Source of the DNA: a bacterium
GTDB taxonomy: Bacteria > Patescibacteriota > Patescibacteriia > UBA1558 > GWA2-36-10
Direction of reading: 5' to 3'
Length of the DNA: 50,510 nt
NCBI GenBank assembly: GCA_018653315.1
Contig: JABIAL010000035.1
Location: 1 to 50,510, forward strand
This document shows positions 7,380 to 47,363 of this stretch, piece by piece; positions within the stretch are counted from its first letter, which is position 1; each line of letters opens with the position of its first letter. The position numbers were made by a program, and so were the translations under genes. The notes below the pieces were generated by a model. That model made no database searches and was not told the origin of the DNA. It saw only the letters and a list, made by a program, of their open reading frames with translations.

Positions 7380-8519
7380 TTATTTAAGTCCTTTTCTATG
7401 TATAATGCTAGTTATTACGCCCCATGCCCATAGATATAAAATAAATACTGCAATCCAACCAACGATTGGGATTTTACAGATAAGCACATATACCAAAATA
7501 CCTAAAGCTAAGACAGAAACTTTTGACCATTTATAATTAGCTAAAAATTTATTTTTTAACCAACTACCCACTAGCCAAGCAGCTAAAACTTTTGCTACAT
7601 ACAATGCAATTACCCAAGCGCCTAAAATAATAAAAGCTAACGGTAGGCCAATAATAGTGATCATCAAAAGAATGCTAATAATTGGTGTCAAAATCAAAGT
7701 AGCTAAACCAATAAATAAAGTTCTAGCTGGGTGTTTCTTAACTCTAGAAGTAACATAGGGAAGTAATTTTGGTAGAAGATAAATCAATAACATACCAACC
7801 ACTAACATACCAAAAAATTTCAAAACCATACTCCACAATACAGGTATTCCAAAGTCTGATTTTACATGTTTAGTCATTTTATTAAAAACAACTTCACCAC
7901 CAATTTGTGCTTGCTCAGAAATATTTAATTCTTGCCAAGCATGATATCTTACCGAGCCATCAACAATAGCCTCATCTGTTAATTGTAAAGCATCTACATT
8001 GTCTCCTGATAAATATAAATCAATATCCTGTCCTACTTGCCCACTAACTGTTAGTATATCCATTCCACCTTCTAGATCACCTGTTACTTGTCCCCGTAGG
8101 CTAACTTGCTGTCCCCAAGCTGTCATATGTCCGCCAACTACGGATTCACTTCCGATCATCGCTATTTGTCCAGCAAAAAAAACATTTTTACTAACTTGTC
8201 CATCAATATTAAGTCTTTCACCGGCAAAACGTACGGATCCATTAATCTGACCTTTTATAGTCAAGCTACTGCCAGCTGCAAAAATATCACCATTAATATT
8301 TTCGGAGTCAATGATTATATTTTGACCTACTAAAAATAAATCACCGTTTATTTCACCATAAATTTCTACACTTTGGCCAGCAGCATAATAATTTTTATCT
8401 ATTTTTTGATCAGCCGCTACAAAAACTACATCACCCCTGTGTAACTCCATGGCCAACAAAGACATTGGCAATAGAAATAGACTCAAAAATATCGCTAAAA
8501 ACCCTACTTTTTTAAACAT
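7380..8519 (-). CDS. Membrane protein with bactofilin-like polymer-forming beta-helix and C-terminal TM segments
   Basis: Signal peptide, repeated GxIxGxxxxxG strands (INGDLFLVGQ...INGDIFAAGSSLTIKGQINGSV), then several TM helices. Confidence 0.75.
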   Translation of the reverse strand: MFKKVGFLAIFLSLFLLPMSLLAMELHRGDVVFVAADQKIDKNYYAAGQSVEIYGEINGDLFLVGQNIIIDSENINGDIFAAGSSLTIKGQINGSVRFAGERLNIDGQVSKNVFFAGQIAMIGSESVVGGHMTAWGQQVSLRGQVTGDLEGGMDILTVSGQVGQDIDLYLSGDNVDALQLTDEAIVDGSVRYHAWQELNISEQAQIGGEVVFNKMTKHVKSDFGIPVLWSMVLKFFGMLVVGMLLIYLLPKLLPYVTSRVKKHPARTLFIGLATLILTPIISILLMITIIGLPLAFIILGAWVIALYVAKVLAAWLVGSWLKNKFLANYKWSKVSVLALGILVYVLICKIPIVGWIAVFILYLWAWGVITSIIHRKGLK

Positions 8520-10984: not shown

Positions 10985-11221
10985 TTATTCAGACTCAACT
11001 TTAATAACATTAACTGGACAAGAAGCTTCAGCATTTAGATTATCTTCTAGGTCACTTTCGTGAATTTCTCCAACGTGCAAATCACCTTTTTTATCAGCTC
11101 CCTCTAGACTTGCCAAGCCATCTTCCTCACTTATCTTCCATGACTGAGGACAAAGCTGAGCACACATTGCGCAGCCGATACAATTTTGTCTATCATGAAC
11201 TACTTTATATTTTTTTGACAT
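10985..11221 (-). CDS. Single-cluster ferredoxin
   Basis: CIGCAMCAQLCPQSWKI...ASCPVNVIKV. Confidence 0.9.
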   Translation of the reverse strand: MSKKYKVVHDRQNCIGCAMCAQLCPQSWKISEEDGLASLEGADKKGDLHVGEIHESDLEDNLNAEASCPVNVIKVESE

Positions 11222-11229
11222 ATATATAT

Positions 11230-12495
11230 TTAATTTGAGCCTTCTCGTTTTTTTATTAGATAAAACTTATCTCCTTTACGCACTTTTTTATCTAAAGCTA
11301 TGGTTATTAATTCTTTTTTATCTGCTTTTTTAATTTCCTCTTCTTTTTCATTGCGAAGAGATTTTATTTTATCAAAAACAACTCCGGTTGTCACTCCGGT
11401 TATAGAAAAATTATCACCAAGCTTTGTATCTTGAGCTTGCAACTGAATTTCTACAATTTTATTTTTAGAAAAATAATTAGTCACTACACCAGCGAAAAAT
11501 TTTTCTTCACTAGACTGATTGCCAGCGCTTGCTGCCCACTCTTGCTCTGACCTACCAAGGTAATATCCATCACTAAATCCTCTATTAAATACTGTTTTTA
11601 GCTCTGCTTCTAGGGCTACTTTTTTATCTAAATTATATTCATTATTTTCTATGGCGATTAATGCTTCGCGATAAGCTTTTACTACTTTTGCTACATATTC
11701 TGGAGATCTACCTCGTCCTTCTAGTTTCAAAACTTGGACTCCAGCATCAATAAAGTCATCCAAAAAACCAATAGTGCAGATATCTTTTGGACTCATAATA
11801 TAATTATTATCTACTACTAGCTCTTGATTTGTTTCTTCATCTGTCACTTTAAATTTACGTCTGCAAGTCTGCTGACAAGCCCCTCTATTTGCAGAAGCGT
11901 TGTATTGGAACAAGCTCATGCTACAGCGTCCAGAAACTGCAATACATAAAGCTCCGTGAGCAAACATTTCTATTTTGACAAGCTCTCCACTCGGTCCAGT
12001 TATCTTTTCTTTTTTTATTTGTTTAGTAATTTTTTCTATCATCGGCAATGTCAATTCTCTAGCTAAGACAACTGTATCTGCATACTGTGCAAAAAATTTC
12101 ACTGCCTCTGTATTTGAAATAGAAACTTGGGTAGAAATATGCATTGGTATCTTTATGCTCTGGGCATATAAAACAGCTGCCATATCAGCTACAATCACTG
12201 CATCAATTTTTTCTGATTTAGCTGCGTCTATAATCTTTCGCATTAAAATTAAATCATGATCATACAAAATCGTGTTAACTGTTAAATAAGTTTTAACTTT
12301 ATGCTTACGACAAATTTGACCTATTTTTTTAAGATCATCAAAATCAAAATTAGCAGCTGCTACTTTACGCATATTAATTTGGCCAATACCAAAATATACC
12401 GAGTCAGCTCCGTTATCTATGGCCGCTTGCAAAGCCTCATAAGAACCGGCTGGTGCTAATAATTCTATATCTAATTTTTTCTTTACTTTTTTCAT
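11230..12495 (-). CDS. Peptidase U32 family protein, TrhP(YegQ)-like (tRNA U34 hydroxylation) rather than protease
   Basis: ELLAPAGSYEALQAAIDNGADSVYFG; EMFAHGALCIAVSGRCSMS...ANRGACQQTCRRKF; C-terminal EEKFFAGVVTNYFSKNKI...GDNFSITGVTTG barrel domain. Confidence 0.85.
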   Translation of the reverse strand: MKKVKKKLDIELLAPAGSYEALQAAIDNGADSVYFGIGQINMRKVAAANFDFDDLKKIGQICRKHKVKTYLTVNTILYDHDLILMRKIIDAAKSEKIDAVIVADMAAVLYAQSIKIPMHISTQVSISNTEAVKFFAQYADTVVLARELTLPMIEKITKQIKKEKITGPSGELVKIEMFAHGALCIAVSGRCSMSLFQYNASANRGACQQTCRRKFKVTDEETNQELVVDNNYIMSPKDICTIGFLDDFIDAGVQVLKLEGRGRSPEYVAKVVKAYREALIAIENNEYNLDKKVALEAELKTVFNRGFSDGYYLGRSEQEWAASAGNQSSEEKFFAGVVTNYFSKNKIVEIQLQAQDTKLGDNFSITGVTTGVVFDKIKSLRNEKEEEIKKADKKELITIALDKKVRKGDKFYLIKKREGSN

Positions 12496-12498
12496 ATC

Positions 12499-13167
12499 TT
12501 ATTTTTTAACAAAACAATTTATATTCCATTTGGTATGATAAACACCTTTTGGCTCTAAATTAAATTTAGATTTTTTTAATAAATTTTCTAATTCAGTCTT
12601 AGTAAAGCTATGATAGTATCGCCATAATTGTTTATTGTCTCCTGAATACTGTTGCCAAGAAACAAAAAAATCATTCCAAGCTTTTTTACGCCACCAAAAT
12701 TTAAAATAATTTTTCAAATACTTTTTTTGTAATAAATTCCAATTAGTCATAAATAAATAACCACCCGGTTTAAGCCAATGATTCATTTTCTTTAATAACT
12801 CAGCTCGATCTTTTCTGCTATCTAAATGATGAAAAGCAGCAATAGAAAAAATCATATCAAAACTTTCTTTTGGAAAATCTATCTTCCGTATATCGGCTAC
12901 TGTAAATTTATGATCAGGAAATTGTTGTTTGGCCTGACTAATTAAGCCCTCACTAAAATCAATGCCCGTGTAATCAATTTGTTTATTGCCCTCTGCTAAA
13001 GATTTCAATAAACGACCATTGCCACAACCCAAATCTAGTATCTTGAAATTATCCTTTATATATGGTATAAAAACTTGTAATTCTTCCCACGGAAAAACAC
13101 GTGAAGCTGAAAACTCCTGGGAAATCTGATTATACACTTCTTTTAATTGTTTAGTTGTTTTATTCAT
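12499..13167 (-). CDS. Class I SAM methyltransferase resembling the Trm9/ALKBH8 tRNA wobble-uridine methyltransferase domain
   Basis: VYNQISQEFSASRVFPWEEL, ILDLGCGNGRLL, IFSIAAFHHLDSRKDRAELL, RYYHSFTKTELENLL. Confidence 0.75.
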   Translation of the reverse strand: MNKTTKQLKEVYNQISQEFSASRVFPWEELQVFIPYIKDNFKILDLGCGNGRLLKSLAEGNKQIDYTGIDFSEGLISQAKQQFPDHKFTVADIRKIDFPKESFDMIFSIAAFHHLDSRKDRAELLKKMNHWLKPGGYLFMTNWNLLQKKYLKNYFKFWWRKKAWNDFFVSWQQYSGDNKQLWRYYHSFTKTELENLLKKSKFNLEPKGVYHTKWNINCFVKK

Positions 13168-14776
13168 GGTAGATCAAAATATAATAGATAATATCGTCAA
13201 AGAATTAGCAGAATTAAATTTTGCTGATGATTTAGATTTTTCTACTACTTTGAGAAAAATATTCAATAAATACAAGATAGCTCCTCTGCCTAAGGCTACA
13301 TTGATTTCATCTTATCGTCAATTACTTAAAGATGGTGTTTTAGTTGAAGATAAAAAATTAACTCGTCTATTAATCAAGCGAGCAATTCGTACTTTATCTG
13401 GTGTTTCTGTAATAACGGTGTTGAGTAAACCTTTTGCTTGTCCTGGAAAATGCATCTATTGCCCAAGTGAACCAGATATGCCAAAAAGCTATCTATCTAA
13501 TGAGCCAGCGGCGATGCGAGCTAAGTTAAACTTATTTGACCCTATTCGTCAGATGACTATGCGGATTAAAGCTCTAGAAAATAACGGCCATCAAGTAGAC
13601 AAATTGGAAGTATTGGTTTTAGGCGGCACTTGGTCTGCTTATCCGGATGATTATCAACAAGAATTTATTCGAGATCTTTTCTATGCAGCTAATACCATGG
13701 AACAAAAAAAAGAACGTAAAAAATTATCCCTAATAGAAGAACAAAAAATTAATGAAGATACTAAATACAAAATTATTGGCCTAACTTTAGAAACTCGACC
13801 TGATTTTATTAATGAGGCAGAGATTAAACGAATGCGTAATTTAGCTTGCACCCGTGTCCAGCTTGGCGTCCAACATACTGATAATAAAATTTTGGATCTC
13901 ATCCAACGTGGTCACACTATTGAACAATCCATTAAAGCTACTCGTCTGTTAAAAGAAGTGGGCATCAAAATAGACCATCACTATATGCCTGACTTACCGG
14001 GCTCTACCCCTGCTAAGGATTTAGAAATGTTTAAATATGTTTTTAATTCTCCAGATTTACAACCAGATCAAATAAAAATATATCCTTGCATCGTCAATGA
14101 ATTTGCTGAATTAAATAAATGGCTAGAAGAAGGTAAATATAAACCTTATTCTAAAACTGAATTATTAAACTTATTATTAGAGGTCAAAAAAATAACACCT
14201 CCTTATGTCAGAATCAACAGATTGATTCGTGATATCCCTGAAGAAAGCATCTTGGCTGGAAACAAAATCACTAATTTACGACAAAAACTGCAGCAAGAGC
14301 TAAAAGAAGCAGGAGGATCCTGTAAATGTATTCGTTGTCGTGAAGTACGAAATGAAGAAGTTGATATAAATCAAATTGAATTGGTAACAAGAGAATATAA
14401 AGCCTCCCAAGGAACTGAATGGTTCTTGAGCTTTGAAAATGATGACCAGACAAAAATTTATGGCTTCTTACGCTTACGTATAAATGATGAGGTGGCTAAA
14501 AATATTTTCCCTGAGCTAGAAAATGCTTCTCTTGTACGCGAACTTCATGTTTATGGTAAGATGATCCCCGTCACTGACAGTAAAGATAAAGATAAAACTA
14601 TATTTAAAACTCAACATTTAGGTTTAGGTAAACGCTTGATGGCAGAAGCTGAAAAATTAACTTTAAAACAAGGATTAAATAAAATAGCTGTTATCTCAGG
14701 AATCGGCGTAAGAAATTATTATAAAAAACTTGGCTACAAATCAGAAGGTACTTATGTAACCAAAACATTAAAATAA
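13166..14776 (+). CDS. elp3: Elp3-like radical SAM/GNAT tRNA uridine(34) modification enzyme
   Basis: SVITVLSKPFACPGKCIYCPSEPDMPKSYLSNEPAAMRA; TRPDFI; DHHYMPDLPGSTP; C-terminal GNAT domain. Confidence 0.95.
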   Translation: MVDQNIIDNIVKELAELNFADDLDFSTTLRKIFNKYKIAPLPKATLISSYRQLLKDGVLVEDKKLTRLLIKRAIRTLSGVSVITVLSKPFACPGKCIYCPSEPDMPKSYLSNEPAAMRAKLNLFDPIRQMTMRIKALENNGHQVDKLEVLVLGGTWSAYPDDYQQEFIRDLFYAANTMEQKKERKKLSLIEEQKINEDTKYKIIGLTLETRPDFINEAEIKRMRNLACTRVQLGVQHTDNKILDLIQRGHTIEQSIKATRLLKEVGIKIDHHYMPDLPGSTPAKDLEMFKYVFNSPDLQPDQIKIYPCIVNEFAELNKWLEEGKYKPYSKTELLNLLLEVKKITPPYVRINRLIRDIPEESILAGNKITNLRQKLQQELKEAGGSCKCIRCREVRNEEVDINQIELVTREYKASQGTEWFLSFENDDQTKIYGFLRLRINDEVAKNIFPELENASLVRELHVYGKMIPVTDSKDKDKTIFKTQHLGLGKRLMAEAEKLTLKQGLNKIAVISGIGVRNYYKKLGYKSEGTYVTKTLK

Positions 14777-47288: not shown

Positions 47289-47363
47289 TGGTGATCCCAC
47301 GGGGAATCGAACCCCGGTTTCTAGGATGAAAACCTAGTGTCCTAACCACTAGACGATGGGACC
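47289..47363 (-). tRNA. tRNA-Glu (anticodon TTC), CCA encoded
   Basis: GGTCCCATCGTCTAGTGGTTAGGACACTAGGTTTTCATCCTAGAAACCGGGGTTCGATTCCCCGTGGGATCACCA folds as a cloverleaf. Confidence 0.95.

Follow-up and report, generated by a model that had tools for sequence, protein, structure and literature searches.

A conserved divergent pair of elp3 and Trm9-like genes in Patescibacteria and a predicted bacterial route to mcm5U34

Introduction

The eukaryotic pathway to 5-methoxycarbonylmethyluridine at the wobble position of tRNA (mcm5U34) combines Elongator, with its Elp3, and the methyltransferase Trm9-Trm112 or ALKBH8-TRMT112; the characterised Trm9 and ALKBH8 enzymes require Trm112 (PMC5372719). In yeast, mcm5U or its 2-thio form mcm5s2U is carried by tRNA-Arg(UCU), tRNA-Gly(UCC), tRNA-Lys(UUU), tRNA-Gln(UUG), and tRNA-Glu(UUC) (PMC5372719). 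Elp3 without the other Elongator subunits, together with a putative Trm9, occurs in the archaea Sulfolobus solfataricus and Haloferax volcanii (PMC2584109, PMC5372719), and the two genes are clustered in S. solfataricus (PMC2584109). A bacterial Elp3 is already known from Dehalococcoides (PMC6367351). According to a 2020 review, 5-carboxymethyluridine (cm5U), mcm5U, and 5-carbamoylmethyluridine (ncm5U) are found in archaea and eukaryotes, whereas bacteria contain only the 5-carboxymethylaminomethyl (cmnm5U), 5-methylaminomethyl (mnm5U), and 5-aminomethyl (nm5U) derivatives (PMC7694415). Here we describe a divergent pair of genes, elp3 and a Trm9-like methyltransferase gene, in a stretch of 50,510 nucleotides from a bacterium of the Patescibacteriota (GenBank assembly GCA_018653315.1, contig JABIAL010000035.1, positions 1 to 50,510; hereafter the window), and its conservation in related genomes.

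The pair resembles the eukaryotic pathway in its two catalytic families, active-site residues, a predicted two-stranded lid, and candidate tRNAs. It differs in being bacterial, in the presumed sufficiency of Elp3 alone, in having no detectable Trm112, and in the arrangement of the genes as one divergent pair; for thiolation the genome has MnmA, whereas the eukaryotic pathway uses Ncs6/Urm1. Elp3 without the other subunits and a Trm9 homologue are shared with the archaeal systems, from which the pair differs in that archaeal genomes usually encode Trm112, either as a free protein or in a fusion. The bacterial MnmE-MnmG-MnmC/MnmM system (xnm5U34) acts on the same position and the same class of tRNA by an unrelated chemistry. 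CmoM likewise methylates a carboxylate on the side chain of U34, that of uridine 5-oxyacetic acid (cmo5U34), to the ester, but it lies outside the methyltransferase family in our tree, and CmoB was not found above its cut-off in the window genome.

Results and Discussion

Conservation of the elp3-methyltransferase pair

The elp3 gene (13166–14776, plus strand) encodes a radical S-adenosylmethionine (SAM) and GNAT enzyme of 536 amino acids, predicted to make cm5U34, and the neighbouring gene (12499–13167, minus strand) encodes a class I SAM methyltransferase of 222 amino acids, predicted to convert cm5U34 to mcm5U34. A search for the methyltransferase in 53 related genomes gave matches in 43, and elp3 was adjacent and divergent in all 30 loci that were fetched. 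In a larger set of 110 loci, taken from GTDB contigs and from loci of the phylum, a script found a divergent elp3 in 94, which with the window locus makes 95. These loci came from Komeilibacteria, Peregrinibacteria, Gracilibacteria, Nealsonbacteria, Magasanikbacteria, Portnoybacteria, Buchananbacteria, Falkowbacteria, and others. One locus titled Ignavibacteriales (L034, QZJX01000010.1) contained a Komeilibacteria-like elp3-methyltransferase pair and is probably mislabelled or from a mixed bin.

Co-occurrence was surveyed within Patescibacteria, in an evenly drawn sample of 240 genomes. Elp3 was found in 89 genomes and a methyltransferase match of at least 95 bits in 61, of which 60 contained Elp3. 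The matches of the exception (G117) and of one other genome (G109) were devoid of the FSxTR signature and are paralogs. All the genomes with a signature-bearing methyltransferase contained Elp3 (59/59; Fisher 6e-34 among the 240 genomes, a value that overstates independence as the sampled genomes are related, so that the number of families is the more reliable guide). The two genes were adjacent in 58 genomes, divergent in every one (58/58), and spread over 32 families. The linkage seen in the window is thus kept across Patescibacteria.

Identity of the methyltransferase

Library profile searches with the methyltransferase returned only generic class I methyltransferase matches. When a profile built from 20 members was compared with 177,635 PDB sequences, the best match was Yarrowia Trm9 (YlTrm9; 5cm2_Z, 3.7e-26), with an alignment running from the TRYKPW segment through RYYH to near the C-terminus; the other high matches covered mainly the SAM core. 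The AlphaFold2 (AF2) model (predicted local distance difference test, pLDDT, 92; predicted template modelling score, pTM, 0.90) contained two predicted strands, at residues 166–172 and 180–186, where the lid of Trm9 lies. In a Foldseek search with this model, 5cm2_Z ranked second by E-value and had the highest target TM-score (template modelling score) among the matches listed (0.83). In the reverse direction, YlTrm9 as query in the window genome found the elp3 neighbour at 4e-17, followed by the next gene at 7e-7.

In a maximum-likelihood tree, in which YlTrm9 was the sole representative of the Trm9 and ALKBH8 enzymes, it fell inside the clade of the bacterial family whereas CmoM, CmoA, BioC, and UbiE of Escherichia coli fell outside, and the branch between family and outgroups was supported at 97/96. 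Nearly all paralogs from the same phylum were also outside, and one (paraG006) lay inside on a long branch. In a score comparison, all the sampled family members scored above the paralogs and the four E. coli enzymes. An assignment to BioC, UbiE, CmoA, or CmoM was supported neither by the library searches nor by the tree or the score comparison. By sequence and predicted fold, the enzyme is Trm9-like; since no Trm112 partner was detected, we class it as Trm9-like and not as Trm9. The grouping with Trm9 that had been suggested for this gene in an earlier reading of the window from its letters (the sequence-only reading) is thereby borne out.

The residues R29, H115, R241, Y243, and N271 of yeast Trm9 (ScTrm9) are reported to bind tRNA and orient cm5U34, and their mutation lowers tRNA affinity and activity (PMC5372719). 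The equivalents were conserved in the bacterial members: R29 in 124/124, H115 in 112/124, R241 in 119/123, Y243 in 98/123, and N271 in 116/123. This conservation bears on the alternative that the enzyme acts on another carboxylate or nucleoside and owes its association with elp3 only to joint inheritance. Class I methyltransferases switch substrate easily, the library matches were generic and Trm112 was undetected, all of which would fit such a role; the conserved residues that contact tRNA and cm5U in Trm9, the presence of Elp3 in every genome with the signature-bearing gene, and the constant divergent linkage argue against it, and we consider it improbable.

Several observations weigh against a Trm9-type function. 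Foldseek placed an uncharacterised Methanosarcina methyltransferase slightly above Trm9, the identity to YlTrm9 was only 26–30%, and YlTrm9 forms a long branch in the tree, so that its exact position is unsure. The residue numbers of ScTrm9 were transferred to YlTrm9, and this mapping is in part provisional. The partner protein is a further point: Trm112 (PF03966) was not detected in the window genome, although the same search was positive in 8 of 14 control genomes. Among the 240 genomes, the only free-standing short protein above the cut-off came from a genome that lacks Elp3, and nearly all the other matches in the phylum fell within long proteins. The sequence-only reading had called for a search for a Trm112-like partner, and none was found in the window genome. 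If there is no divergent partner, the enzyme has to differ from eukaryotic Trm9.

Such a partner is the subject of a variant that overlaps with the two-gene pathway proposed below, in which the Trm9-like enzyme would make mcm5U together with a zinc-knuckle analogue of Trm112 too divergent for PF03966. The need of Trm9 and ALKBH8 for Trm112 elsewhere (PMC5372719) is in its favour, as is the shortness of the profile (40 positions, cut-off 22 bits). The positive control genomes and the confinement of nearly all matches to long proteins tell against it, and we regard the variant as rather unlikely.

Elp3

The Elp3 protein scored 543 bits against TIGR01211, far above the cut-off of 350, and matched archaeal Elp3 in a phmmer search of the PDB (1e-116). 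The three cysteines of the radical SAM cluster were kept in 87/87 full-length patescibacterial proteins. The spacing of the iron-sulfur (Fe-S) motif was CX3CX2C in 122/125 proteins (at about 13439–13462 in the window), one residue shorter than the CX4CX2C motif of the archaeal MinElp3. In MinElp3, K150, K266, Q461, and Y517 are residues of the acetyl-CoA site (PMC6367351). The equivalents of K150 and K266 were found in 87/87 proteins each and that of Y517 in all 61 proteins reaching this position; the equivalent of Q461 was a glutamate in 85/87. The patescibacterial Elp3 is predicted from these features to make cm5U34.

Proposed pathway

Taken together, elp3 and the divergent methyltransferase gene probably encode a two-gene bacterial wobble-uridine pathway, in which cm5U34 would be formed first and mcm5U34 second. 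Elp3, with its radical SAM cluster and acetyl-CoA, would add a carboxymethyl group to C5 of U34, and the Trm9-like enzyme would use SAM to esterify the carboxylate on tRNA-Arg(UCU), tRNA-Gly(UCC), tRNA-Lys(UUU), tRNA-Gln(UUG), and tRNA-Glu(UUC). MnmA could add the 2-thio group on the last three, giving mcm5s2U. The proposal builds on the observed gene identities, co-occurrence, linkage, and residue conservation, the absence of MnmG, and the lack of detectable Trm112; from these we infer the two reactions, which tRNAs are modified, and that Trm112 is not needed. The conserved linkage and the grouping with Trm9 support the minimal bacterial mcm5U route without other Elongator subunits that the sequence-only reading had put forward, and the route would also operate without a recognisable Trm112.

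The genes found in the window genome are compatible with this scheme. All five tRNAs are encoded, tRNA-Glu(UUC) inside the window (47289–47363, minus strand) and the other four outside it; the tRNA-Glu(UUC), earlier singled out as a natural candidate substrate, is one of five candidates. MnmA is present (395 bits) and was found in 204/240 genomes. MnmG is absent from the window genome and from 234/240 genomes, and none of the six genomes that contain it has Elp3 (0/6). The mutual exclusion of Elp3 and MnmG alone is not significant (Fisher 0.09) because MnmG is so rare. The Elp3/Trm9-like route would take the place of the MnmE-MnmG route to cmnm5U, which is missing. No exclusion was seen between TilS and Elp3. 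The codon counts of the window (AAA > AAG, etc.) match its GC content of 34% and are uninformative on U34.

No earlier account of a conserved bacterial Elp3-Trm9-like pair without Trm112, and none of Elp3 in the Candidate Phyla Radiation, was found in a literature search that had most subscription journals and bioRxiv preprints outside its coverage. Such a pair, across much of a huge uncultured phylum mostly without MnmG, would change the present picture of cm5U and mcm5U. It would also offer a two-protein system for the reconstitution of mcm5U and would test whether Trm9 catalysis needs Trm112.

U32 protein and ferredoxin

Two further minus-strand genes follow the methyltransferase gene, with gaps of 3 and 8 nucleotides: a U32 family protein of the TrhP/UbiU superfamily with Fe-S-type cysteines (11230–12495; PF01136, 227 bits) and a 4Fe-4S ferredoxin of 78 amino acids (10985–11221; PF13459, 44 bits). 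All four open reading frames were confirmed, and the strands and gaps of the four-gene layout were reproduced as first read. The sequence-only reading had joined the four genes in one wobble-modification module, in which the ferredoxin would supply electrons to Elp3 and the U32 protein would carry out a step of the 5-hydroxyuridine (ho5U) type. The tight packing fits this module, as do the Fe-S cysteines in common with TrhP: the U32 protein shares 27% identity with E. coli TrhP, and their alignment keeps the pattern GALC..GRC..C..C. Apart from the window, however, no U32 or ferredoxin match was found in about 110 related elp3-methyltransferase loci (with flanks of up to 6 kb for those of the named set). 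The U32 gene was found in 15/53 genomes; in the 14 relatives it was never beside elp3, and the ferredoxin followed it directly in 8/14 loci. The U32 protein scored 183.5 bits against the TrhP equivalog NF011996, far below its cut-off of 534, and CmoB was likewise missing above cut-off in the window genome; a TrhP with a cmo5U branch was rejected on these two grounds, and an ho5U or cmo5U branch is unsupported. Of the four-gene module only the Elp3/Trm9-like half is supported, and a shared pathway of all four genes appears very improbable. The U32 and ferredoxin genes are a separate conserved pair with a separate function, merely juxtaposed with the elp3 module here. The U32 protein is most likely an Fe-S-dependent hydroxylase-type enzyme, acting on RNA or a cofactor and supplied by its own ferredoxin.

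An asparagine-synthase-domain gene beside elp3

Thirty loci contained Elp3 without an adjacent Trm9-like gene. In six of them, from four families (L215, L216, L217, L218, L227, and L242, of genomes G073, G254, G109, G151, G194, and G124, respectively), a gene with an asparagine-synthase domain adjoined elp3 or lay one gene away. The AsnB-like proteins were 260–283 amino acids long (one cut by the contig end) and had AsnB (1ct9) as PDB match; three of them were compared with PF00733 and matched it at 8e-29 to 2e-35. No Trm9-elp3 locus among those searched contained the gene, and none of the six genomes had a signature-bearing Trm9-like gene (0/6; Fisher 0.001); in one family (f62), some genomes carry the AsnB-like gene and others the Trm9-like gene. 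The association was noticed incidentally, in few genomes with related pairs among them. The remaining genes beside elp3 in genomes without the Trm9-like gene, identified by eye as NDK, uracil-DNA glycosylase, and aldolase-like, show no apparent connection.

The chemistry of AsnB, adenylation of a carboxylate followed by amidation, is that required for conversion of cm5U to ncm5U. The enzyme for this step has not yet been identified (PMC7694415), and nothing on ncm5U with asparagine synthetase was found in the same literature search. The AsnB-like gene is a possible candidate for the ncm5U-forming enzyme, a lead and not a result. Tentatively, and with somewhat more doubt than belief, we suggest that Patescibacteria finish cm5U34 beside elp3 in two alternative ways, by a Trm112-free Trm9-like enzyme (mcm5U) or by a stand-alone AsnB-like enzyme (ncm5U). 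If true, the gene would be the first candidate for this activity, and its position beside elp3 makes the question of ncm5U directly testable.

Layout of the locus and other observations

There is no intergenic space between elp3 and the methyltransferase gene, whose start codons overlap in a shared CATG (13165–13168); the same overlap was found in 13/15 loci of the same family. If the starts are right, each promoter must sit inside the coding sequence of the partner. A scan of 12900–13450 found no sigma-70-like promoters or terminators; this yield was below shuffle expectation, so that the scan is uninformative on regulation. A membrane protein of 379 amino acids is encoded at 7380–8519, and its homologues often lie directly downstream of the methyltransferase gene in relatives (L003, L004, L006, L010, L022, and L028).

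The genome is 881 kb long in 39 contigs and 97% complete. It contains a tRNA-Ile(UAU) gene (L178, G000:C28:30354-30427) without detectable TilS. A tRNA-Arg with the anticodon GCG was found (L185, G000:C3:3214-3286), and tRNA-Arg(ACG) was not seen among the tRNAs found. A low-scoring tRNA gene (L208, G000:C28:56341-56411) was read as tRNA-Cys with the anticodon ACA, and a normal tRNA-Cys(GCA) was also present.

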